Source: an uncultured Bacteroidia bacterium (GTDB taxonomy: Bacteria > Bacteroidota > Bacteroidia > Bacteroidales > UBA932). Taken from it: 64,000 bases of DNA. Made by a program: the position numbers and the translations under genes. This document shows, piece by piece, positions 13,005 to 25,748 of this stretch. The stretch lies in NCBI GenBank assembly GCA_902769525.1, contig CACXPG010000003.1:124001-188000 (forward strand), read 5' to 3'. Positions within the stretch are counted from its first letter, which is position 1. Each line of letters begins with the position of its first letter. The notes beneath the pieces were generated by a model. It made no database searches. It worked only from the letters and a program-made list of their open reading frames with translations, and was not told the DNA's origin.

Positions 13005-13012
13005 TAAATTTG
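13005..13012 (+). promoter_or_regulatory. Probable -7 element for the 13038 operon
   Basis: TAAATTTG matches the Bacteroidota -7 consensus exactly and lies 25 bp before the ATPase start. The nearest upstream TTTG (12977-12980) is 24 bp away, a little far. The element lies back to back with the rplU promoter. Confidence 0.55.
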
Positions 13013-13037
13013 TGCGCTTATGCGTTAATATTTTGAC

Positions 13038-14141
13038 ATGAACTACCTGTCGCCATTTGAGTACAACGGAATTGTAACCGGCATGAGGTTTGTCGGCCGA
13101 GAAAAAGAGGTCGCCAAGCTCCAGAAGCTCATTTCGGCTCACAAGAACGCCCTTTTGTACGGCCCTCCTAAAATCGGGAAGAGGTCTATAGTCCACAATG
13201 CCCTAAAGGGAATGGACCTGGAGGCAGAAGGGATTGCGGTATGCATGCTCGACCTATTCAACATCCGCCATCTGGACAAGCTTCTCAGAAAAATAGCCAG
13301 GGAGGTTGCCAAAGTTCTGCTCCAGAGTGGAGAAGAGCAGAAGACATTCTCGACCTGCCTCAAGGGCATTGTGATCGAGCCTTCCTCCAAACAGCCCCTG
13401 ACCGACAAGCAGGTCAAGGCACTTCTGAGATTCCCCCAGTCCCTGGCCCACGTCAAGAAGAAGCATCTCGTGCTGTATTTCCAGCAGTTTCAGGACATAT
13501 TGCTGTTCGACAAGCCAATGAAGGTTCTGGGAATGCTCGAGAGTGCATTCGCCGAGTCAAAGGACGTATCGCTGATAATTACCGGAGACAAGAGGAACGC
13601 GATGTTCTCCATATTTGAAGAAATGCATTTCTTCCGCAACATCGTCACAGAGATTCCGGTAAAGCCGATAAACAGGAAAGTATTTGCCGAGTTCATAATA
13701 AAGTGCTTTGACCAGGGCGGCAAGCAGGCATCTATGAAAGACGCGTTGCTCATCTATGACACCCTGGAGGGAGACCCTTGGTATGCCCAGCACCTGGCCG
13801 AAATATGCTACCTGCTCACAGACAAGGTTCTGGACCAGGACGTTATCCAGAGGAGTGTAAAGCATCTTCTGAACATGTACGACTATGAACTCCACAACAC
13901 CATATATGGGCTAAGCACACACCAGCTGCAGCTTATCAGAGCCATCCTCGACGGGGAAAGGCGTTTTTCCAAGACCGAGGTGCTGGAAAAGTACGGCCTC
14001 AACTCGTCTGCCAACGTCAACAGGCTGAAAGAGGCCCTCACGAAGAAGGAAGTCGTGACCTTCGTTTCCAAGAACACCATCGAGTTCAACGACTCCCTGC
14101 TAAAGCTGTGGTTCAGGAATTATTTCTTCAACGACCAATAA
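13038..14141 (+). CDS. AAA/STAND-like ATPase with degenerate Walker B
   Basis: The 367-residue protein begins with an FVGREKEVAKLQ motif and a Walker A GPPKIGKRS at about residues 42-50, as in archaeal-type STAND/AAA ATPases. The expected Walker B acid pair (usually DEFQ) reads FQQFQ here, near residues 147-151, so hydrolysis may be lost. After the ATPase core comes a winged-helix-like region (about 290-340, STHQLQLIRAIL...). The C-terminus LWFRNYFFND resembles that of the DUF234-bearing ATPases. It is 9 bp before the sirtuin gene, so the two are probably co-transcribed. Its cellular role is unknown. Confidence 0.75.
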   Translation: MNYLSPFEYNGIVTGMRFVGREKEVAKLQKLISAHKNALLYGPPKIGKRSIVHNALKGMDLEAEGIAVCMLDLFNIRHLDKLLRKIAREVAKVLLQSGEEQKTFSTCLKGIVIEPSSKQPLTDKQVKALLRFPQSLAHVKKKHLVLYFQQFQDILLFDKPMKVLGMLESAFAESKDVSLIITGDKRNAMFSIFEEMHFFRNIVTEIPVKPINRKVFAEFIIKCFDQGGKQASMKDALLIYDTLEGDPWYAQHLAEICYLLTDKVLDQDVIQRSVKHLLNMYDYELHNTIYGLSTHQLQLIRAILDGERRFSKTEVLEKYGLNSSANVNRLKEALTKKEVVTFVSKNTIEFNDSLLKLWFRNYFFNDQ

Positions 14142-14150
14142 ACCGAGTTT

Positions 14151-14837
14151 ATGAAAAAGATAGTTGTTCTGAGCGGAGCGGGAATAAGTGCTGAAAGCGG
14201 TATCAAGACTTTCAGGGACAGCGACGGGCTGTGGGAGAATTATCCCGTAGAGGAAGTTGCCACGTACGACAGCTGGTACGCCTACGGCCGCAAGGCTCTT
14301 ATGCTTAAATTCTACAACGAGAGGCGCACAGACCTTCAGACCAGAGAGCCTAACCTGGCTCACAAGATTGTCGCGGAGCTGGAAAAGGATTTTGAAGTTA
14401 CCGTTGTAACCCAGAACATAGACGATCTCCATGAGAGGGCCGGGTCATCCCGCATCATACACCTTCACGGGGAACTGACCAAGGCCAGGGGAGAGTATGC
14501 AGACTACTATACAGCCACATCCATTGGCTACAACGATATTAAACTGGGCGACAAGACTCCGGAAGGAGATCAGCTCAGACCGCACATAGTCTGGTTCGGG
14601 GAAGCCGTTCCGGAACTCGAAAAGGCGGCTGCCGCAGTCCAGAAAGCAGACATACTTATTATTATAGGAACATCTCTTGTAGTATATCCTGCAGCGGGAC
14701 TTGTACACTATGCCAAGGCAGGGGCCGACATTTACCTTGTAGACCCTAAAGACGTGGCATCTTCCGCAAGATTCACCCATATCAAGGAAAAGGCCACTGT
14801 CGGGATGCAGAAACTGAAAGACATCCTCAAGCCCTGA
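14151..14837 (+). CDS. cobB: SIR2-family NAD-dependent protein deacylase (CobB-like)
   Basis: Sirtuins remove acyl groups from lysines using NAD. The 228-residue protein has GAGISAESGI at 9-18, TQNIDDLHERAG at 88-98, and the catalytic His in HLHGEL (H106). Y55 and R58 form the YxxR motif linked to desuccinylase/demalonylase activity in CobB/SIRT5. The four zinc-binding cysteines usually found after the HG motif are absent, since residues 107-145 contain no Cys. It follows the ATPase by 9 bp and precedes the nuclease locus by 49 bp without a clear promoter between. Confidence 0.9.
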   Translation: MKKIVVLSGAGISAESGIKTFRDSDGLWENYPVEEVATYDSWYAYGRKALMLKFYNERRTDLQTREPNLAHKIVAELEKDFEVTVVTQNIDDLHERAGSSRIIHLHGELTKARGEYADYYTATSIGYNDIKLGDKTPEGDQLRPHIVWFGEAVPELEKAAAAVQKADILIIIGTSLVVYPAAGLVHYAKAGADIYLVDPKDVASSARFTHIKEKATVGMQKLKDILKP

Positions 14838-14886: not shown

Positions 14887-17415
14887 ATGAGACTAAAAGC
14901 ATTAATTCTGACGATCATGGCCGGTGCCTTCATGTTTGCCGGCTGTGCTCAGGAAGACCATCAGGACATGCCGTACATCGACCTTGACGGCATTTCTTCT
15001 GATGCTGTCCTGTCTTTTGAAGCCGGGGCGTCTTCCCAGACTTTCACCATTACCTGCAACAGGTTCTGGCACATCGAATACGACGCTGAATGGCTGCACA
15101 TTGAGCCTACCGTCGGTACTGCCACTGAAACGCCTCAGGTAATAACCGTCACTGTCCTCAACAATGACTCATTTGACAGGAGCATTCCTGTAAAGGTTTC
15201 CATGGATTATGATTACAAGACCGTTACCGTCAAGCAGAAAGGAGAGTGGGGAGATCCTGAAGACCTGGTCATCTACAAGAACAACTTTGACAAGGAAGCT
15301 GCCACCCAGACCTACGGAACCGGAACAAGCTGGCCTTACACAGACCAGAGCGACTGCTGGAAGAACGAGACCGGAAGCGGAATCGAAAACGTGGAGTACA
15401 CAGCCTCCGGAATCAGTATCAGGAACAACTCCAATTCCAACGGCAACTATTCCGATTACGAGGGATCCGGAACCAACAATCTCTTCTTCGGTTCAAAGGG
15501 AGCCTTCAAGATCGCGAACATAGACATTACAGGAAAGGGTGTAAATTACGAGCTGAGCTTCGGTTCCGAGAAGTATCTCAACCAGGGTTCTTCCGTATTT
15601 GCCCCTTCTGAATTCCACGTATGGATCGGCTCGGATCCTGACCATATGGTAGAAGTTGAATATGCCTTCCCTAACGGCTATAAGGACGGAAGATGGGACA
15701 AGGCCAATACCGTGTTCACCGTTCCTGACGGCACAGCAAGCCTTTGCGTTTACTACAAGGTGGACGTTGCAAGCGCATACCGTCTGGATGACGTCAACCT
15801 TAGCGTATCCACAACCGCCGGCACTCCTCTCAACTTTGAGGAAGGAGTCAATCCGGACAGGGATCCTAGCGTTGGAACTGTTATCTACTATAACAACTTC
15901 GACAAGGAAAAGGCAACCCAGACCTACGGAAGCGGCAACAGCTGGCCATTCACAGACCAGAGCGACTGCTGGATCAACCACGAGGGTGAGGGTTCAGCCA
16001 ACGTCACATATTTCAACAAGGGTATAACCGTAAGGGCCAACAGCGCTTCAGACGGCACATACTCAGACTATTCAGGCTCCGGCGTGAACAACCTGTTCTT
16101 CGGAAACGAAGGAATGTTCAAAATCAAGGGCATCCAGACCAAGGCTGAGTACGCAAACTACAAGATTACCTTCGGCAGCGAGAAATACCTCAACCAGGGA
16201 GACTCCAACTTCAACCCTCAGGAATTCCACGTTTATGTCGGAAAGGATACCATCAAGTGGGTGGAACTCACCTACAACTTCCCTAACGGCCTGAAGAGCG
16301 GAAGATGGGACGAGGCTTCTACAGTCATCACGATACCTCAGGGAACAAGTGAACTGTTCTTCCGCATCCAGGCAGACGTTGCAAGCGCATACCGTCTGGA
16401 TGACTTCAAGGTTGTAGTTTCCGAAGAGGCCGGAACAAGCATTGACTTCAACCAGGGTGTTATCCTCGACGATGACACTCCTCCGGTTCCTGGAGAGGAA
16501 TACAAGTACAAGAAGGTTCAAAGGATAACCAGCGGCAAGGCTTATCTGATCGTCACCACCGACGGAAAGGTTGCAGCCGGTCCGGTTCCGGCAAACAAGA
16601 CCTTCGGCTATCTGCCTAAGGTTGTCGTGAATGCCGTCAATGACGAAATCACTTTAACCACAGACGCCAACGAGTTTGTATTTGAGGAGGCATCTGTTGC
16701 AGGATCAACCGCTCCTGTTTACAAGATCAAGCAGAAAGACGGAAGATATCTCTACATGTCCGGAACATACACCAGTCCTAATGTGGATGCAAATCCGTCA
16801 TCTGGCCAGTACTGGAATGTAAGCGAGTGGAACCTGGGTATGGGTATTGTCAACACCTCCAACAACAAGTATATGCAGTACAGCACAACCCACTCTTCCT
16901 GGGGAGTTTACGACTCAGCCCAGGACGGAGCCCTGATGCCTGAATTGTACGAAAGAGTTGACGGAGATGATCCTGATCCAGGTGGAGACGACGACCCTAC
17001 AGGCGATGAAATCGTATGGAACGTAGGTTCCAATTTCCAGACCTGGTATGCCGAAACCGACGGCACATACGGAGCCGGCTTCTACGCAACAGACACAACC
17101 AGCATAAAGGTAGCTTACTACAAGCACACCAGCAGTTCTACACCTGTAACTGCCAGTCAAGACCATATAAGGGTTTACAAGTACTCGGTACTTGTGATTA
17201 CTCCTCTGGACCAGAGCAAGAAGATCAAGAAAGTGATTCTGGAAACTACCGCAGCTGCCAACACTTCGGATATGCCTATCCTCGCACCTGGTTCTGGAAC
17301 GGCAACAGCTTCAGGCACAACAATTACCTGGACGGGCACAGCCGTAACTCCGTGGATTGCCTATGCTGCCAACGGACAGGTAAGGGTGAAGAAACTAACT
17401 GTAGAACTGGAATAA
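14887..17415 (+). CDS. Surface lipoprotein with BACON domain and two large repeats
   Basis: An 842-residue lipoprotein with a lipobox ending in C20 (FAGC). A BACON domain spans about residues 35-118. Two near-identical ~200-residue repeats start at about 126 and 330; both carry NNFDKE, TDQSDCW, FGSEKYLNQG and VDVASAYRLDD. The region 535-695 has a YLY/KYMQY rhythm like carbohydrate- or ligand-binding beta folds, and an Asp-rich linker precedes a final beta domain. No catalytic motif is seen, so a binding role at the cell surface is likely. It is 1 bp from the nuclease gene, which also has a BACON domain. Ligand unknown; nucleic acid is inferred from neighbours. Confidence 0.8.
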   Translation: MRLKALILTIMAGAFMFAGCAQEDHQDMPYIDLDGISSDAVLSFEAGASSQTFTITCNRFWHIEYDAEWLHIEPTVGTATETPQVITVTVLNNDSFDRSIPVKVSMDYDYKTVTVKQKGEWGDPEDLVIYKNNFDKEAATQTYGTGTSWPYTDQSDCWKNETGSGIENVEYTASGISIRNNSNSNGNYSDYEGSGTNNLFFGSKGAFKIANIDITGKGVNYELSFGSEKYLNQGSSVFAPSEFHVWIGSDPDHMVEVEYAFPNGYKDGRWDKANTVFTVPDGTASLCVYYKVDVASAYRLDDVNLSVSTTAGTPLNFEEGVNPDRDPSVGTVIYYNNFDKEKATQTYGSGNSWPFTDQSDCWINHEGEGSANVTYFNKGITVRANSASDGTYSDYSGSGVNNLFFGNEGMFKIKGIQTKAEYANYKITFGSEKYLNQGDSNFNPQEFHVYVGKDTIKWVELTYNFPNGLKSGRWDEASTVITIPQGTSELFFRIQADVASAYRLDDFKVVVSEEAGTSIDFNQGVILDDDTPPVPGEEYKYKKVQRITSGKAYLIVTTDGKVAAGPVPANKTFGYLPKVVVNAVNDEITLTTDANEFVFEEASVAGSTAPVYKIKQKDGRYLYMSGTYTSPNVDANPSSGQYWNVSEWNLGMGIVNTSNNKYMQYSTTHSSWGVYDSAQDGALMPELYERVDGDDPDPGGDDDPTGDEIVWNVGSNFQTWYAETDGTYGAGFYATDTTSIKVAYYKHTSSSTPVTASQDHIRVYKYSVLVITPLDQSKKIKKVILETTAAANTSDMPILAPGSGTATASGTTITWTGTAVTPWIAYAANGQVRVKKLTVELE

Positions 17416-17416
17416 C

Positions 17417-18574
17417 GTGAAAACTACCAGATACATACTGCTCGCGACGCTACTGGCGGCAACACTGCTGCTGGCGGCAGCCTGCGGCGGTGGTAGCGGC
17501 AAAGGCGGGGACAAACCCATTACGCCAGACGCCGTGCTGTCCGTTACATTCCAGTTCCCAGCTGTAGATGCAGCAAAAGGAAGCCAGTTTGTAACGGTTT
17601 CAGCAACCGGCGCCTGGAAAGTCAGTTCATCTGCTGCCTGGCTGAAGCCAAGTACCGATGGAGGAAACGGGAGCACGACTATCTCTGTTTCGTACGAGGC
17701 GAACACTTCTTCTTCGCCGAGGACGGCAAACATCACGATAAACTGCTCCGGAAGAACCGCCACCGCGACCCTGACCCAGAAAGGAAAGGAAGACACACCG
17801 GTAGTTGTCGTGTCTGAATGGCTGGAACTTCCTGCAATTCAGACAGGAACCGGACACAAGTTCGTGTCCCACAACTTTACCGGCAAGAGTCTCCGAAGCT
17901 TCTCATACGACTGGAACTCCACAGACCAGGTCGCAAACTGGGTGGCCTACCCGCTGAACAGAGGCCTGATGGGATCCGGCAGCAGGACTGACAACTGGGG
18001 CTATGACCCTAAACTGACCTCAGCCGAGCAGCCTACCCTTTTCTCCGGATATAAGGGGACTTACGACAGAGGCCATCAGCTTCCAAGCGCGGACCGTCTC
18101 ACCTACGCTGAAAACGTGAAGACCTTCTACTTTACCAACATGACTCCCCAGATGAATGCCTTCAACAGCAAGATCTGGGCAACAGCCGAGAGTATGGTAA
18201 GGGGTTGGTCCACCAGCTGTGACACTCTCTATGTTGTGACAGGATGCATTGTCAGGGGCAGTTCCAAGAAAGCCTATGACAACAACGGAAGGTCGGTTAC
18301 GGTTCCTGTGGCTTATTACAAGGCCGTTCTCCGCTATATGAAAGGAAGCACCATCGGCTACAGCGGATATATGGGCCTGGCCATGTACTTTGAGCACAAG
18401 GCTTACAGCTACTCAAACATCAGCAAGACCAACACTGAAATCGTGATGAGCATAGACGCGCTGGAGGCCAAGATTGGACTTGACCTTTTCCCTAACCTGG
18501 AGAAGGTTGCGGGAAAGAGTGTTTCTGACAAGGTTGAAGCCGAAGACCCTACTAAAGTATCTTACTGGTGGTAA
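17417..18574 (+). CDS. Secreted DNA/RNA non-specific endonuclease lipoprotein (DRGH family) with BACON domain
   Basis: The gene starts with GTG one base after the previous stop. It encodes a lipobox ending in C23 (LAAAC), a BACON domain at about residues 38-122 and a NUC1/Serratia-type nuclease domain at about 135-380. The active site YDRGH has H220 as general base, and the metal-binding Asn is likely N241 in YFTNMTPQMN. Enzymes of this family degrade DNA and RNA in a Mg-dependent way. The lipoprotein signal places it outside the cytoplasm, which fits feeding on external nucleic acid. At 385 residues it is longer than the bare enzyme because of the BACON domain. Confidence 0.92.
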   Translation: MKTTRYILLATLLAATLLLAAACGGGSGKGGDKPITPDAVLSVTFQFPAVDAAKGSQFVTVSATGAWKVSSSAAWLKPSTDGGNGSTTISVSYEANTSSSPRTANITINCSGRTATATLTQKGKEDTPVVVVSEWLELPAIQTGTGHKFVSHNFTGKSLRSFSYDWNSTDQVANWVAYPLNRGLMGSGSRTDNWGYDPKLTSAEQPTLFSGYKGTYDRGHQLPSADRLTYAENVKTFYFTNMTPQMNAFNSKIWATAESMVRGWSTSCDTLYVVTGCIVRGSSKKAYDNNGRSVTVPVAYYKAVLRYMKGSTIGYSGYMGLAMYFEHKAYSYSNISKTNTEIVMSIDALEAKIGLDLFPNLEKVAGKSVSDKVEAEDPTKVSYWW

Positions 18575-18585
18575 AAAATTGCTTT

Positions 18586-19668
18586 ATGAAGAAACTACTT
18601 GCATACACTTTTCTGGCCCTGTTGCTGTCTGTAGGCGGCAACTGCCTGGCCCAGAACAAGGTAAAGACATACGTCATCGGATTCTACAATCTGGAGAACC
18701 TGTTTGACACCTATCACGACGACGGCAAGAACGATTTTGAATACCTGCCTGACGGAGCGAACGAGTGGACAGAAGTAAAGTACCAGAAAAAACTGCACAA
18801 CATGGCTAAGGTCATAAAGGCCATGAAAGAGGAAAACCATGTTTACCACGCAGTTCTGGGAGTGAGCGAGATTGAGAACAGGCACGTTCTGGAAGATTTG
18901 GTCAACGATCCTCAGATCGCTGATGCAGGCTATATGATAGCTCATTTCGACGGCCCGGATTTCCGTGGAGTGGACGTGGCCCTTCTGTATCAGCCGACAA
19001 AATTCGAGGTGCTGGACGAGGAGAGCCTTCCGTTCAACTTCAATTCCCCAACCATCGTATTTGATATGGATTCCACTCAACAGGCCAACTTCCACACCAG
19101 AGACATACTGATGGTCAGAGGCTTGCTGGGCGGAGAGATGTTCGCCTTCTTTGTGGCTCACCTTCCTTCCAGAATCGGAGGCAAGGGCGGAGACCTCAGA
19201 AGCCGCGGAGCGGAAATCATCTACAAGAGGGCCGACGAACTGATGAAAGAGTTCCCGGGAATCAAGATTGTGGTGATGGGAGACATGAATGACAATCCTA
19301 CAGACGAGAGCATGACCGTATTTATGCACGGAAAGGAAAACATCGACGATGTTCAGGAAGGAGACTTTTTCTCTCCTTTCATCTCGATGCTCAAGGCCGG
19401 ATACGGTTCTCTTGCCTACCAGGGAGCCTGGAACATATATGACCTTCTTCTGGTTAACCATAGCCTGGCTAAAGCAGAAAAAGGAACATTGAGGATTGTA
19501 CCTATCGTCCGCAAAAAATTCTACGGGAGGATATTCCACAAACCTTTCATGACAACCCAAGAGGGGCAGTACAAAGACGTGCCTTACAGAACTTTTTCCA
19601 ATGGTTCGTTCGTGGGAGGTTTCAGCGACCACTACCCTACCTATATAGTTGTAACAAATAAAGATTAA
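18586..19668 (+). CDS. Exported endonuclease/exonuclease/phosphatase-family protein
   Basis: The start MKKLL at 18586 gives a 360-residue protein with a Sec signal peptide ending near NCLAQ. The metal-hydrolase motifs are complete and in order: NLENLFD, VSEIEN, RGVDVALLY, HLPSR, GDMNDNP and SDHYP. The family includes DNases, phosphodiesterases and sphingomyelinases. Next to the DRGH nuclease it probably trims nucleic-acid fragments outside the inner membrane. It starts 11 bp after the nuclease and ends 4 bp before the receptor gene. Exact substrate cannot be read from sequence. Confidence 0.9.
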   Translation: MKKLLAYTFLALLLSVGGNCLAQNKVKTYVIGFYNLENLFDTYHDDGKNDFEYLPDGANEWTEVKYQKKLHNMAKVIKAMKEENHVYHAVLGVSEIENRHVLEDLVNDPQIADAGYMIAHFDGPDFRGVDVALLYQPTKFEVLDEESLPFNFNSPTIVFDMDSTQQANFHTRDILMVRGLLGGEMFAFFVAHLPSRIGGKGGDLRSRGAEIIYKRADELMKEFPGIKIVVMGDMNDNPTDESMTVFMHGKENIDDVQEGDFFSPFISMLKAGYGSLAYQGAWNIYDLLLVNHSLAKAEKGTLRIVPIVRKKFYGRIFHKPFMTTQEGQYKDVPYRTFSNGSFVGGFSDHYPTYIVVTNKD

Positions 19669-19672
19669 AGAT

Positions 19673-22612
19673 ATGCTAAAGAAAATTTCCCTGATTTTAG
19701 CCGTTACGCTGTGCTCGGTTCTGGCCTGGGCCCAGACACCTACCGGCGGCGTTAAGGGAACGGTAATCAACCGTACGGACCGTTCAGCGGTCTACAACGC
19801 GAGGCTGACACTCCTCAGTGGCTCGACTCAGGTTGCCACCGCAAACACTGACTCGGACGGAAACTTTATGATTCCCGGCCTCAAAGACGGAGTTTACACT
19901 TTGGTCATAGCCTCTGACAACTATGTCACCACAAGAGTAAACGTCACCGTCGTCAAAGGATATGTCAAGGACATGTTCACGATTTCCGTTTATCCGGTTA
20001 TCCGCCAGAGCGAGGTCACGTCCGACGAAGAAACAGTAGACTTCGACCTGGAAGATTCCGGCTACCAGGACAGCCCTACAATCTTGTATGGCCAGAACGA
20101 CGTGTTCAACAACCAGGCCGGATACAAATTCTCGGCCATCAGGTTCAAGACCAGAGGTTTCAACAGCGAGGCCCAGGACGTTTACCTTGCCGGCATCAAG
20201 ATGAACGACGCCATCACAGGCTATTCTCCTTTCTCGCTCTGGAGCGGACTTAACGAGGCCACCAGAACCAAGTACACCGTAAACGGCGGAGAAATCTCCG
20301 ATTACGGGTTCGGCGGCTACAACGGCCTGACCAACATTCCGGCAAACGCCTCCAACGTGCGCAAGGGCTGGAGAGCAAGCGTTATGACCAACAGCAGCCT
20401 CTACAGGCTCAGGCTAATGCTCACCTACGCTTCCGGAGTTCTGGACAACGGATGGAGCTACGCTTTCAACGTGTCTGCAAGAATGGGCGGAAACGACTGG
20501 ATTAACGGAGTGTTCTACCGCTCTTTCGGCTATTACTTCAGTGTGGAGAAGAGCTTCGGGAAGCATCACAAGATCGGAGCCACCTTTATGGGAACTCCTG
20601 GCACGAGAGGAGCCCAGAACGCGTCCACCCAGGAAGTGTATGACCTCAGAAAAGACAACATGTACAACTCCAACTGGGGATGGCAGCGCGGAAAAAGGCG
20701 CAACGCCAGGGAGAGAAGGGTTCACGAGCCAATCGCGATACTCAAATATGACTTCACTCCTTCAGACCGCTTCAAGGCTTCCCTGACAACTCTGTACAGG
20801 TTCGGAAAGAACGGATACACAGCCCTGGACTGGTACGATGCGGCAGACCCTAGGCCTGACTACTACCGTAATCTCCCGTCCTACTTCCTGATGGACAACC
20901 AGGACTACAACCGTATCAACCTCCAGAAGTACCTGTGGGCCCAGGACATGTGGAAGCAGAACGAAAAGACCATCACCCAGATCAACTGGGACAGGCTCTA
21001 CGATGTGAACAGGAACAGCAGGACCGCAGACGGCCTCCGTTCCAAGTATGTCCAGGAGGAAAGAAGAGTTGACCAGAAAGACCTCAACGTAGGCCTGAAT
21101 TTCAAATGGAACGTGTTCAAGTGGTGGGATATCTCCGCAGGCGCAAACGCCAAGTGGAACAGGACCGAGAACTACAAGAAGATCGCGGACCTTCTCGGCG
21201 GAGAATACTTTGTGAACATAGACAACTTCGCGGAAAGAGACTATGCCACAAACGAGGCCAAGATCCAGAACGACCTCAACTACTTCTTCAAGAACGGCCA
21301 CGCCCAGATCCTGCACAAGGGAGACAAATACGGATACGACTATTATGCCCACATCCAGAATTACACGGGATGGATGAACTGGACTTTCAGGTTCGGCGGA
21401 TTCAGGGCTGACTTTGCAGGACAGGTGAAAAAAAGCAAATTCTGGAGAGAAGGTCTCTACAGAAAAGGAATGTTCGCAGGACAGGATGAAAACGGCAACG
21501 ACATCTACTACAACGGGGAAAACCTGACTATCTACAGTCACGGAGATGTAGTGTCATCCTACGGCAACAGTGAAAAGTGCGATTTCACCACTTATTCCGG
21601 CAAGGCAGTTTTGAGCTACAGCCTGCTCGGAGGCCACAGGTTCTCCGCAAGCGCAGGCTACTTCAGGGAAGCCCCTATGTTCAACAAGGCTTTCATATCG
21701 CCGAGAACAAGAAACACCATCATCCCTTATCTGGACAAGACAAAAATTTTTGCGGCAGATGTTACTTACTCCCTGAACAACAACCACGTGAACTTCAGGG
21801 TCACCGGTTTCTACGCTACCATCAAGGACCAGACGGATGTGATGAGCCTTTACGACGACAGCCAGAACACCTTCACCAACTTCGCGATGAGCGGAATCGA
21901 CGAAAGGCATATCGGAGTTGAAATGGGATTTAAGGCTCCTCTGTTCCTCAGAGGACTTTTCCTGGTTGGAGCGGCAAGCTACGGCGAGTATATATATACT
22001 TCCAACCCGTACATGACCCAGACCTTTGACAACACCACCGAGATTATCTACGACAATGTAAAGATACCTTACTGGATGAGCCACCCTACATTCAAGATGG
22101 GTACCGACGGAGAGTATATCAAGGACGATAAAGGACATTATGTTGTGGACAAGTACAAGCAGCACTATGTTCCTTCCACTCCTCAGCTGGCTTCCACTCT
22201 GGGCCTTTCCTACAACAGGAACTACTGGTTCCTGGATGCCAACGTGAATTTCTTCGACAAGTCCTACCTTGCAATGAACCCTCTCTACAGGACCGATATG
22301 GCTACAGCCGGTCCTGACAAGACCATCACTCCGTGGGAAGTCGAGTATATGACCACACAGGAGAAGTTCAAGAGAGCGTTTATTGTCAACCTGAGCATCG
22401 GCAAGAGCTGGTACATCCAGCGCAAATATCAGCTGGGATTCAACCTCAACGTCAACAACGTCCTCAACAACAAGAACGTGAAGACCGGAGGATTTGAGCA
22501 GAGCCGTATGGTGGACAACACCAGAAGCAAGGAGTGCTACTACAAGTTTGACCCTAAGTACTACTATATGCCGGGTCTGAACTACATGATTAATATTTAT
22601 GTCAGATTCTAA
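19673..22612 (+). CDS. TonB-dependent outer-membrane receptor (SusC-like, no SusD)
   Basis: This 979-residue receptor has a signal peptide ending WAQ at about residue 21, a carboxypeptidase-regulatory-like domain at about 24-105, a plug at about 120-230 (SAIRFKTRGFNSEAQDVYLAGI) and a barrel to the C-terminus ending YMINIYVRF. Such receptors import bulky ligands using ExbB/ExbD/TonB energy. It lies between the exported hydrolase and the DUF5689 lipoprotein with gaps of 4 and 12 bp. No SusD gene is present, so the DUF5689 protein may act as the substrate-binding lid (inference). Confidence 0.92.
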   Translation: MLKKISLILAVTLCSVLAWAQTPTGGVKGTVINRTDRSAVYNARLTLLSGSTQVATANTDSDGNFMIPGLKDGVYTLVIASDNYVTTRVNVTVVKGYVKDMFTISVYPVIRQSEVTSDEETVDFDLEDSGYQDSPTILYGQNDVFNNQAGYKFSAIRFKTRGFNSEAQDVYLAGIKMNDAITGYSPFSLWSGLNEATRTKYTVNGGEISDYGFGGYNGLTNIPANASNVRKGWRASVMTNSSLYRLRLMLTYASGVLDNGWSYAFNVSARMGGNDWINGVFYRSFGYYFSVEKSFGKHHKIGATFMGTPGTRGAQNASTQEVYDLRKDNMYNSNWGWQRGKRRNARERRVHEPIAILKYDFTPSDRFKASLTTLYRFGKNGYTALDWYDAADPRPDYYRNLPSYFLMDNQDYNRINLQKYLWAQDMWKQNEKTITQINWDRLYDVNRNSRTADGLRSKYVQEERRVDQKDLNVGLNFKWNVFKWWDISAGANAKWNRTENYKKIADLLGGEYFVNIDNFAERDYATNEAKIQNDLNYFFKNGHAQILHKGDKYGYDYYAHIQNYTGWMNWTFRFGGFRADFAGQVKKSKFWREGLYRKGMFAGQDENGNDIYYNGENLTIYSHGDVVSSYGNSEKCDFTTYSGKAVLSYSLLGGHRFSASAGYFREAPMFNKAFISPRTRNTIIPYLDKTKIFAADVTYSLNNNHVNFRVTGFYATIKDQTDVMSLYDDSQNTFTNFAMSGIDERHIGVEMGFKAPLFLRGLFLVGAASYGEYIYTSNPYMTQTFDNTTEIIYDNVKIPYWMSHPTFKMGTDGEYIKDDKGHYVVDKYKQHYVPSTPQLASTLGLSYNRNYWFLDANVNFFDKSYLAMNPLYRTDMATAGPDKTITPWEVEYMTTQEKFKRAFIVNLSIGKSWYIQRKYQLGFNLNVNNVLNNKNVKTGGFEQSRMVDNTRSKECYYKFDPKYYYMPGLNYMINIYVRF

Positions 22613-22624
22613 CAAATACAGGCT

Positions 22625-23647
22625 ATGAAAAAGATATTGAACATTGCATATATTCTGGTTGCGGCATCTGTTCTGGCAGCTTCCTGCTCAGAATGGGACC
22701 CTGTAGTGAATCTTGGCTATGACCAGCCGGAAGAATACGAAGTGCCGGATATAAGGGCCAACATCTCTATCGCTGCTTTAAAGGCCATGTACAAGGACAA
22801 GCCTGTACACATCGAGAAAGACCTGATCATCGGAGGCCAGGTTACCACTTCTGACCAAAGCGGCAACATCTATCTGTACATGTACCTTCAGGATGCGACC
22901 GGAGCCATTGAAGTTAGAATCGGAAAAACTTCTCTTTACAACGATTACCGCCCTGGGCAGTGGGTGTTTGTCAAGCTTAACGGCCTTACTCTCGGAGCCT
23001 ACGAGGGCATGCTCCAGATTGGTCTGGAAGACCCTTCCGGAGAATATGAGACAGCCACCATCGATGTGCAGAGAATGATCAACCTTCACATTATTAAGGG
23101 AATGATGGACTCTCCTGTAGCCCCTGCTGTTCTTTCGGAAAACGAACTGACCCTGACTCAGAACATGGGAAGGCTCGTCACCCTGAACGGGCTCAGCTAC
23201 GCCAACGAGGCCTTCGCTCTTTTATATCCTGACCCTTACGGAGACAAGAAGAGCACCGCCAACAGAGTATTCCTCAGCGACAAGACCTGGGGCATCACCA
23301 CCTGGGCTATGAGCAAGAACAAGATGCAGGCATATCTGGATTCCGGCATTTGGGATTCAGCCGTCACTGCAGACGGATCAAAGACAGTAGAGCAGCTCCG
23401 GAAGGAAAATGCCATCGAACCGTCCGCTACCTATGTCAGCCAGTACTTCAGGATGGGGCAGACCGAAATCCAGATCAGAACCAGCGGCTACGCCAAGTTT
23501 GCAGACGTTGACCTGGACGAAGAAGTGCTCAACGGCTCCAAGATGATCAACGTTACAGGCATTTTGACAAACTACCGCGGCGCTCCTCAGTTCACCATCA
23601 TAGACCTTGACGGGGTCCAGGTAGTCGATCCGCAGAATCAGCCATAA
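22625..23647 (+). CDS. DUF5689 (OB-fold-like) surface lipoprotein
   Basis: The 340-residue lipoprotein has a lipobox ending in C21 (LAASC). A beta-rich region at about 55-150 (IGGQVTTSDQSGNIYLYMYLQD, then GAIEVRIG) is typical of the OB-like fold of DUF5689. A second beta region near 290-335 repeats the theme. These proteins often neighbour extracellular nucleases in Bacteroidota (from memory), so nucleic-acid binding is plausible. It starts 12 bp after the receptor. No enzymatic motif is visible. Confidence 0.82.
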   Translation: MKKILNIAYILVAASVLAASCSEWDPVVNLGYDQPEEYEVPDIRANISIAALKAMYKDKPVHIEKDLIIGGQVTTSDQSGNIYLYMYLQDATGAIEVRIGKTSLYNDYRPGQWVFVKLNGLTLGAYEGMLQIGLEDPSGEYETATIDVQRMINLHIIKGMMDSPVAPAVLSENELTLTQNMGRLVTLNGLSYANEAFALLYPDPYGDKKSTANRVFLSDKTWGITTWAMSKNKMQAYLDSGIWDSAVTADGSKTVEQLRKENAIEPSATYVSQYFRMGQTEIQIRTSGYAKFADVDLDEEVLNGSKMINVTGILTNYRGAPQFTIIDLDGVQVVDPQNQP

Positions 23648-23663
23648 AAAACTCTAGTCACTT

Positions 23664-25682
23664 ATGAAAAAAGCACTGACATTAACTATACTGCTTATGG
23701 CACTGGCCTGCTGCACAGAACAGAATCCTTTCCTCAAATCCTGGGACACTCCTTACGGAATACCTCCGTTCGACCAGATAAAGACCGAGGACTATCTGCC
23801 GGCCATAAAGGAAGGCATCGCCGAGCATCAAAAGGAACTTTCAGCCATTATAGACAACGCGGAAGCTCCTACATTCGAGAATACGATTGCCGCTTACGAT
23901 CTTTCAGGACAGCTTCTTGCAAAGGTCAGCGGTGTACTGTTCAACCTGGCAGAAACCGATGCCGACTCCACTATGAACAAAGTCGAGGAGGAGGCAAACA
24001 AGCTTCTCACGGCCCATTCTGACGAGGTTTTCATGAACAAGAAATTCTTCGAGAGAGTGAAAGCCGTTTATCAAGCCGACCAGTCTAAGCTCACCCGCGA
24101 GCAGCAGATGGTGCTCAAGAGACTCTACCAGAGATTCACCCGCAACGGGGTTGACCTGGAAGAGGCCGCCCAGGAAGAGCTCAAGAAAATAAACCAGGAG
24201 CTTTCCGAGGCCCAGCACAAGTTCGGTGACCATCTGCTTGCAGAAAACAACGCCTTCAAGGAGAAATTCGGTATTCCGGTATCGGCTTATTCTGAAGAGA
24301 TGGGAAGCTGCCCGGACAGAGAAAGGCGCAAGGCCATGTTCGAGGCATATTCCAACAGGGCCAACCACAACGATTCTCTTGACAACAAGGCTATCTGTCT
24401 GCAGATACTCAAACTGAAGGCGAAAAAGGCGAAGCTTCTCGGTTTCGAGAACTTTGCAGCCTACCAGCTGGACGACAAGATGGCTCACGACCCTCAGACA
24501 GTTGATGTTTTCCTGGACGAAATAATGCAGGCTGCTAACAAGAAGAGCAAGGAAGAAGTTTACGATATGCAGAAGGTTATGGACCAGGACATCAAGGCCG
24601 GTCTTCTGCCTAAGGGCAGCAAGATAGAGCCATGGGACTGGTTCTACTATGCAGAGAGAGTCAGAAAGGCAAAATACGACCTCGACGAGGAGCAGACCAA
24701 GCCTTACTTCAAGATGGAAAACGTCAGGAAGGGAATCTTCTACGCAGCCAATCTCATCTATGGAATCAACGTGGAGCCTCTGGAAAACGCGCCTAAGTAC
24801 AACCCTGAGGTAGAAGTGTTCAAGGTCACCGACGCAGACGGCTCTCTTCTGGGAATATTCCTCACCGACTATTTCCCGAGAAGCACCAAGAGAGGCGGAG
24901 CCTGGATGAACAACTTCAGAGACCAGTTCATAGACAAGGACGGCAAGGAAGTCCGCCCTGTCATCGTGAACGTGGCTAACTTCAACGCCCCTACCGACTC
25001 TCTCCCTGGTCTTCTGACCATCGACCAGGTGGAGACTATGTTCCACGAGTTCGGACACGCCCTGCACGGCCTTCTTACCAAGTGCACCTATCCTTCTGTC
25101 AGCGGAACAAGCGTTACCAGAGACTTTGTGGAGACATTCTCGCAGTTCAACGAGAACTGGGCTTTCCAGCCTGAGATTCTTGCCCAGTACGCAAAGCATT
25201 ACCAGAGTGGAGAGGTAATCCCTGATTCTCTTGTTTCAAAGATTATAGATGCCCGCAAGTTCAACCAGGGCTTTATGACAGCCGAGCTCTGCGCAGCTTC
25301 GATACTGGACATGAAGTGGCACGAACTCTCAGAGGAGCAACTCGACGGAATCGAGATAGACAAGTTCGAGCAGAAAGTCTGCCAGGACATGGGCCTGATC
25401 AAGGAAATCATCCCGAGATACCGCACTACCTATTTCAACCACATCTTCAACTCTGGCTACAACGCCGGATACTACGGCTATCTGTGGAGCGAAGTTCTGG
25501 ACAAGGATGCTTTCAGCTACTTTGAGCAGCAAGGCATCTACAGCAAGGAAGTTGCAGAAAAGTTCCGCAAGACCTTCCTGGAGAAAGGCGGAAGCGAGGA
25601 GCCAATGGTCCTGTACGAGATGTTCAAGGGCGGCCAGCCTGATCCTAAGGCGATGCTCAGGGCAAGAGGCCTGGCTGAATAG
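23664..25682 (+). CDS. dcp: M3-family metallopeptidase lipoprotein (peptidyl-dipeptidase Dcp-like)
   Basis: This 672-residue zinc peptidase has HEFGHALHG (HExxH) and a downstream conserved block FVETFSQFNENW supplying the third ligand region. It matches the length of oligopeptidase A/Dcp-type enzymes. The N-terminus has a lipobox (MALACC), so it acts in the periplasm, trimming short peptides. It begins 16 bp after the DUF5689 gene and ends the operon before a strong terminator. It may degrade protein carried with nucleic acid or be an unrelated passenger. Confidence 0.92.
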   Translation: MKKALTLTILLMALACCTEQNPFLKSWDTPYGIPPFDQIKTEDYLPAIKEGIAEHQKELSAIIDNAEAPTFENTIAAYDLSGQLLAKVSGVLFNLAETDADSTMNKVEEEANKLLTAHSDEVFMNKKFFERVKAVYQADQSKLTREQQMVLKRLYQRFTRNGVDLEEAAQEELKKINQELSEAQHKFGDHLLAENNAFKEKFGIPVSAYSEEMGSCPDRERRKAMFEAYSNRANHNDSLDNKAICLQILKLKAKKAKLLGFENFAAYQLDDKMAHDPQTVDVFLDEIMQAANKKSKEEVYDMQKVMDQDIKAGLLPKGSKIEPWDWFYYAERVRKAKYDLDEEQTKPYFKMENVRKGIFYAANLIYGINVEPLENAPKYNPEVEVFKVTDADGSLLGIFLTDYFPRSTKRGGAWMNNFRDQFIDKDGKEVRPVIVNVANFNAPTDSLPGLLTIDQVETMFHEFGHALHGLLTKCTYPSVSGTSVTRDFVETFSQFNENWAFQPEILAQYAKHYQSGEVIPDSLVSKIIDARKFNQGFMTAELCAASILDMKWHELSEEQLDGIEIDKFEQKVCQDMGLIKEIIPRYRTTYFNHIFNSGYNAGYYGYLWSEVLDKDAFSYFEQQGIYSKEVAEKFRKTFLEKGGSEEPMVLYEMFKGGQPDPKAMLRARGLAE

Positions 25683-25713: not shown

Positions 25714-25748
25714 GCAAGGGGTTGATTAGTCAATCCCTTGTATTTTTT
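25714..25748 (+). terminator. Strong rho-independent terminator closing the nuclease operon
   Basis: CAAGGGGTTGA and TCAATCCCTTG form an 11-bp stem with one G-T pair and a TTAG loop, followed by TATTTTTT. It begins 32 bp after the M3 peptidase stop and separates it from the hydrogenase operon. Confidence 0.9.

Follow-up and report, generated by a model that had tools for sequence, protein, structure and literature searches.

How DNA crosses the outer membrane of Bacteroidota is unsettled, and the closest described system is that of the duck pathogen Riemerella anatipestifer, for which one study gave two unexplained genes (PMC8459023). There, markerless deletion of either RA0C_RS04915, an outer-membrane protein with a carboxypeptidase regulatory domain, or RA0C_RS04920, a DUF5689 plus DUF5017 protein, takes transformation below detection. 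The same report proposes that RS04920 binds DNA and that RS04915 carries it across, leaves the strand-degrading protein without assignment, mentions RS04910 as an upstream gene only, reports RS04915 homologues only from Flavobacteriaceae, and gives locus tags for RecA (RS04870) and ComEC (RS04895), then RS04915 and RS04920. Transformation is also reported to be reduced in tonBA and tonBB mutants of R. anatipestifer, of which tonBB alone is tied to iron uptake. Within the open-access literature searched (which takes in no preprints and few subscription journals), DUF5689 and RA0C_RS04915 are named in PMC8459023 alone. Exported nucleases are reported to be common in Bacteroidota that are said to degrade DNA (PMC8289736, PMC11495043), and according to a review, competent P. 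gingivalis may in addition use scavenged DNA as food (PMC5907639).

We compared this system with a locus in a 64,000-nucleotide stretch of DNA (the window, G000:C3:124001-188000) from a 2.23 Mb genome that is 92% complete and whose closest named relatives among the matches listed are Bacteroidales MAGs (transporter identity 87-89%, one from yak rumen), with Candidatus Cryptobacteroides more distant in the same comparison. Six open reading frames lie on the + strand at 14887-25682, where the initial annotation placed them. They encode a surface lipoprotein of 842 aa (gene 1, 14887..17415), a lipoprotein nuclease of 385 aa (gene 2, 17417..18574), an exported nuclease of the endonuclease/exonuclease/phosphatase (EEP) family (gene 3, 18568..19668), a TonB-dependent transporter of 979 aa (gene 4, 19673..22612), a DUF5689 lipoprotein of 340 aa (gene 5, 22625..23647) and an M3-family (Dcp-like) peptidase (gene 6, 23664..25682), followed by an intrinsic terminator on the same strand (25714..25741, 12 pairs plus a T run). 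A simple pattern called lipobox-like starts on genes 1, 2, 5 and 6. The positions, strand and terminator of the run thus stand as first described, and the 1-16 bp spacing given for it does not hold throughout: the intergenic gaps are 1, -7, 4, 12 and 16 bp, with genes 2 and 3 overlapping, unless, as may be, gene 3 starts at the internal ATG six codons in, in which case that gap becomes about +11 bp.

Immediately upstream, AAA ATPase and Sir2 genes (13038..14837, + strand) are collinear with gene 1, with gaps of 9 and 49 bp. Because a TAAATTTG box lies shortly 5' of the AAA ATPase gene (13005-14837 region) and a pattern search found no TAnnTTTG in the 49-bp gap between Sir2 and gene 1, the transcription unit may begin upstream and take in both genes. 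Sigma-70 is not the promoter type of this phylum, and a sigma-70 scan of the locus was therefore set aside. Genes of similar size are present upstream in the closest relatives (L157, L159, L201 and partly L156).

Both nuclease assignments of the initial annotation held up. Gene 2, described as a DRGH non-specific nuclease lipoprotein with its own BACON domain, matched Endonuclease_NS (NS; 9e-34) plus BACON in Pfam, and its nuclease domain matched Anabaena NucA (1zm8, E 1e-17), with a YDRGHQ motif in which the catalytic RGH is kept. Among NS open reading frames of at least 280 aa, RGH occurs in 89 of 92 with the first D variable, and is missing in those of L123 and L124, both outside the window's clade, and in the second copy in L202. 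Gene 3, read as an exported EEP protein, matched Exo_endo_phos_3 (PF19580, 2e-87), with E43, N44, E103, H198, GDxND and SDH invariant across 24 members of its family, and an NCBIfam match to ExeM/NucH extracellular nucleases falls far under the cut-off.

For gene 4, Pfam returned CarboxypepD_reg and similar N-terminal domains only, with no Plug or barrel match on the protein itself and Plug matched in 11 of 28 members of the family. NCBIfam likewise gave only the N-terminal domain, far under the cut-off, and no SusC/RagA match up to E 0.05, while among solved-structure sequences only the N-terminal domain was matched. The structural model (pLDDT 83.9) matches PqqU, FecA, OprC and BtuB, and on this model gene 4 is predicted to have the TonB-dependent transporter fold, plug plus barrel, in keeping with its first designation as a TonB-dependent receptor; a viral fold library gave 2 matches at E <=0.001, which were uninformative.

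Gene 5 matched DUF5689 (4e-45) in Pfam, with an OB match below the cut-off and no DUF5017 match on the 340-aa protein; it matched the 'M949_1556 family lipoprotein' of NCBIfam far under the cut-off and had no match among solved-structure sequences. Its model (pLDDT 91.9) has the DNA-binding proteins HIN-200, RPA and RADX as best Foldseek matches, and 32 PDB chains match at E <=0.001 with low TM-scores (0.21-0.30 of the query for the best 32), so the match is to OB-fold content and not to arrangement. The protein models as built of OB folds resembling DNA-binding proteins, which, with the sub-cut-off OB match and the lipobox-like start, agrees with the OB-like lipoprotein originally described. 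The window's genome gives two DUF5689 matches, the second possibly being another stretch of the same gene, and in two Bacteroidales loci a DUF6359 protein, possibly a further partner, directly follows the DUF5689 gene (L087:12899-14386 and L077:8940-11273).

Gene 1 departs from its first description as two BACON repeats: the repeats, at about aa 127-328 and 333-532, are DUF5017-like instead, and the protein has only one BACON domain (Pfam, 1e-7) along with two further C-terminal domains. In profile comparison, the repeats matched the C-terminal part of flavobacterial DUF5689 proteins with 98.2% probability (E 3.8e-14, a value that holds for one comparison, 24 of 32 flavobacterial loci having yielded a protein of suitable size), and the two other gene 1 domains gave 0.1 and 0.6% probability against the same profile. 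Judging from this match, the DUF5017-type domain that sits on the DUF5689 protein in Riemerella is carried by gene 1 in the window. The repeats were found in 21 to 24 open reading frames also matched by our DUF5689 profile; drift of that profile into the repeats was considered and rejected, as gene 1-type proteins of relatives carry DUF5689 over the Pfam cut-off in 8 of 8 tested (BACON in 5 of 8).

The last gene of the run is an M3 peptidase as first identified (Peptidase_M3, 5e-131) and adjoins gene 5, and only its place in the core of the unit fell: an M3 gene occurs in 42 of the 80 best named relatives and, by phmmer, in 1 of 60 order-wide loci, and we regard it as an optional passenger. 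The initial annotation was also right that the locus has no SusD, none having been matched by Pfam among the nine proteins scanned. A SusCD utilisation locus was rejected, with neither a SusD nor a SusC model match.

To place these genes beside the Riemerella pair, we used a genome (G775; 2,164,087 bp, one contig) in which locus L256 and its extension L316 follow the Riemerella gene order. Before ComEC come, in order, RecA, a DinB-like polymerase and three genes for succinate dehydrogenase (RecA, DinB and SdhB being named from their sequences); ComEC is followed in turn by a 145-aa gene, a carboxyltransferase and an EEP nuclease, and then by the transporter and a DUF5689 plus DUF5017 protein. 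Since the locus-tag spacing of PMC8459023 fits L256/L316 exactly, with the position of RecA predicted beforehand and then found, this genome is very probably R. anatipestifer, and RS04910, through its L256 counterpart at the same position, is very probably an EEP nuclease. The window's transporter aligns with that of L256 over its whole length (29% identity, 1008 columns, E 2e-114), the EEP nuclease at 28% (E 2e-52) and the DUF5689 protein at 31% over only 143 residues (E 5e-14), and within the window's genome the L256 transporter matches only gene 4. Taking L256 as the Riemerella locus, we read gene 4 as homologous to RA0C_RS04915 and gene 5 as homologous to the N-terminal part of RA0C_RS04920, so that, beside the earlier statement that no well-characterised system has this exact set, the receptor-DUF5689 pair does have a characterised counterpart in transformation. 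Just 3' of the uptake pair, the Riemerella-like genome has CRISPR cas1 and cas2 (L256:15490-16717).

Gene-order comparison across 160 loci (60 from the order, 80 named and 20 from a phylum sample, searched with profiles grown for the purpose) revealed an EEP-type gene in 140, a DUF5689 gene in 157, an NS nuclease in 89 and an M3 peptidase in 46. The 80 named loci are the best matches to the window among those listed and show depth of conservation rather than breadth: in these, EEP lies directly 5' of the transporter in 78 and NS next in 78 (two have no room), DUF5689 lies directly 3' of the transporter in 78 with M3 next in 42, and a gene 1-type lipoprotein, by a profile that includes the BACON domain, lies 5' of NS in 68 (six have no room). 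The nuclease/receptor/DUF5689 linkage, raised at first as something to be checked, is therefore conserved. Among the 95 loci outside the window's clade, EEP is found within 4 kb in 73 and within 8 kb in 76, mostly in divergent orientation, and 17 NS or Endonuclease I genes occur in 13 loci, all at most 3.3 kb from the transporter, with none in the 789 kb lying farther than 4 kb from it. These 13 loci are partly kin (L111, L116 and L118 belong to one genus; L123 and L124 are tree neighbours), and Pfam places Endonuclease I in L106 and L111 and OB-fold matches over the cut-off in L123 and L124. Across 44 control loci (207 kb, mostly around ComEC and partly overlapping) there was no NS or Endonuclease I, and the EEP profile matched one, L004, which had been chosen as a member of the wider EEP family. 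The linkage is far above chance.

The transporter family, counted among the matches listed, is present in 141 of 294 genomes of the order at E <=3e-53, the window's genome included. Of 198 genomes sampled from the phylum, the window's and 27 of the 48 others in the class give scores above 600 bits, against 0 of 149 outside the class, where the best score is 218 bits. At E 1e-150, 221 of 249 genomes of one flavobacterial family have the transporter, representing 182 of 202 genera, and at 1e-100 so do 68 of 70 of a second, with two matches in at least 2 and at least 3 genomes of the two families (copy number being a lower bound). The window's own family has the locus in only 24 of 59 genomes, and the genus in 1 of 5, a patchy spread. 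By these comparisons, the core of EEP, transporter and DUF5689 occurs across the class Bacteroidia. In a tree of 86 transporters and 2 outgroup rows, built by a quick method with no bootstrap, all 22 collinear NS-EEP rows form one fully supported clade nested in the wider family, and the window's version is best read as a single-origin derivative with a surface nuclease. Bacteroides rows stand among Alistipes rows within this clade, pointing to transfer between genera. A genome of the Weeksellaceae-like family (G785) has the module twice: L271 is ordinary, and in L272:6388-15948 an NS nuclease fused to fimbrillin runs in one direction with a fimbrillin-like protein, EEP and a clostripain-type peptidase; this second copy groups with Bacteroidales in the tree and again pairs a surface nuclease with an extra copy.

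Working from gene content, linkage, homology and domains, we propose a DNA substrate, an order of steps, locations and a nutritional use for the locus. Two BACON-bearing surface lipoproteins would hold extracellular DNA and one of the two, of NucA type, would cut it into pieces; the DUF5689 OB-fold lipoprotein would sit on the transporter and pass DNA to it, the transporter would draw the DNA into the periplasm with TonB energy, and the exported EEP nuclease would trim it either in the periplasm or on exit. The core of EEP, transporter and DUF5689 would match in kind the module on which transformation of R. anatipestifer depends, to which the window's lineage would have added a surface nuclease and a larger capture lipoprotein, the DNA being eaten for phosphate and nucleosides. 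A nucleic-acid substrate, as suggested at the outset, is supported by the recurrence of three secreted nuclease families beside the receptor and by the OB-fold model of DUF5689. We lean, with a little more belief than doubt, towards a nuclease-armed, TonB-powered outer-membrane module for DNA import that serves probably mainly feeding and not recombination. Surface digestion would suit feeding better than gene uptake, and against the feeding reading stand the sole tested function of the family, which is transformation, the Riemerella-like locus without an NS nuclease alongside, and the DprA present in the window's genome. The foraging unit first proposed is thus borne out in part: the linkage, the nucleic-acid substrate and the missing SusD remain, and what changes is the link to competence, which had been missed, and the peptidase, which is not core.

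DNA import for recombination is a serious alternative because of the homology of the receptor-DUF5689 pair to the Riemerella transformation pair. It would have DNA pass through the transporter, the nucleases make it single-stranded, the short ComEC give passage and DprA/RecA recombine it, and we consider this unlikely while giving it real weight. EndA, a DRGH-type nuclease, serves transformation in pneumococcus and counts for this alternative, against which a non-specific nuclease at the surface would be expected to destroy much donor DNA. The ComEC of the window's genome (L278:3512-4576) has 354 aa and lacks the core end, and those of two relatives are similar (373 aa at L279:4725-5846 and 365 aa at L280:4080-5177), with DUF4131 missing from all three in Pfam; in G207, comEC (L281:4367-7240) is split by a DDE transposase with DUF4372 while its uptake locus (L067) is whole. 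It is the reduced ComEC, this split gene beside a whole locus and the patchy presence of the locus in the family that make feeding the likelier use. The same short ComEC nonetheless keeps its core, and forms of about 354-375 aa occur also in L302, L313 and L314, with or without the uptake locus. In many of the family genomes compared, their ends fall at about one point of the core, which gives them the look of an inherited form rather than of recent decay, and they may retain activity.

Within the family, the length of ComEC is not tied to the presence of the locus, which weakens the argument for feeding: 7 of the 24 genomes that have the locus show frames of at least 650 aa, as do 13 of the 35 that lack it (a single one of these 13 frames contains an internal stop), so reduced ComEC is not special to carriers. 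ComEC reduction was accordingly set aside as proof of feeding; these data uncouple the module from a full ComEC and leave feeding unproven. For 71 hand-picked genomes, those with the transporter keep ComEC in 30 of 30 and DprA in 30 of 30, as recombination would have it, and those without keep ComEC in 32 of 41 and DprA in 33 of 41, most absences falling in genomes of around 2.2 Mb or less, and 'without' meaning, in the flavobacterial families, no match at 1e-150 or 1e-100. Given the hand-picking, the mostly small genomes with absences and the strict thresholds, this co-occurrence is weak, and most genomes without the module keep both genes as well. DUF1343 (RS09020) was uninformative as a co-occurrence marker, being NamZ_N and present in 69 of 71 genomes.

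Less probable still, indeed doubtful, is the strict form of the original proposal, by which digestion takes place outside and the transporter takes only short oligonucleotides or nucleotides, unrelated to competence import. The order of the window, with two exported nuclease genes preceding the transporter, agrees with it, as do the secreted nucleases common in DNA-degrading Bacteroidota (PMC8289736, PMC11495043), yet the transporter shares whole-length homology with one that transformation requires, and a core without surface nuclease is the wider state within which the collinear clade nests. That the nucleases serve another end, such as clearing biofilm or mucus DNA, while the transporter takes up some nutrient of another kind (peptide, metal complex) is very improbable, for although the window's unit and 42 of the 80 best relatives include the M3 peptidase and, among solved structures, the transporter model is best matched by small-ligand transporters, the transporter lies beside EEP or other nucleases class-wide, in two orientations and with three nuclease families, and just 1 of 60 order-wide loci has the peptidase.

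Building on the feeding reading, a broader scenario can be offered more tentatively, and we rate it somewhat short of even: a TonB transporter, OB lipoprotein and EEP nuclease found throughout Bacteroidia would carry DNA over the outer membrane, replacing the secretin and retracting pilus that serve other competent Gram-negatives, and a gut and rumen clade would have turned this machine to eating DNA, gaining a NucA-type nuclease while ComEC shrank. New here are a class-wide family for the pair, a candidate nuclease partner in RS04910, a modelled fold for DUF5689 and the nuclease-armed gut and rumen version, with which DNA feeding and gene uptake in these bacteria become directly testable.

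Set against known systems, the window resembles the SusC/SusD loci of Bacteroidota in uniting a TonB-dependent transporter with a carboxypeptidase-like N-terminus, surface lipoproteins and degrading enzymes, and differs in that a DUF5689 OB-fold protein stands where SusD would be and in being without SusD and SusC/RagA matches. Gene 2 shares its nuclease domain with Anabaena NucA and Serratia nuclease and differs from them by its lipobox, its BACON domain and its encoding alongside a transporter. DNA-feeding Bacteroidota of marine sediment are like the window in their exported nucleases and in DNA as nutrient, whereas the main text of that account never names TonB (PMC8289736) and the window has a TonB-dependent transporter. 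Closest is the Riemerella pair of RS04915 and RS04920, which likewise places a PF13620 transporter before DUF5689, with EEP adjoining the transporter in L256. There the EEP gene is divergent, DUF5689 has its own DUF5017 and comEC is four genes away, whereas the window is collinear, with no DUF5017 on gene 5; and where L256 has no NS nuclease, BACON lipoprotein or M3 gene alongside, the window has all three.
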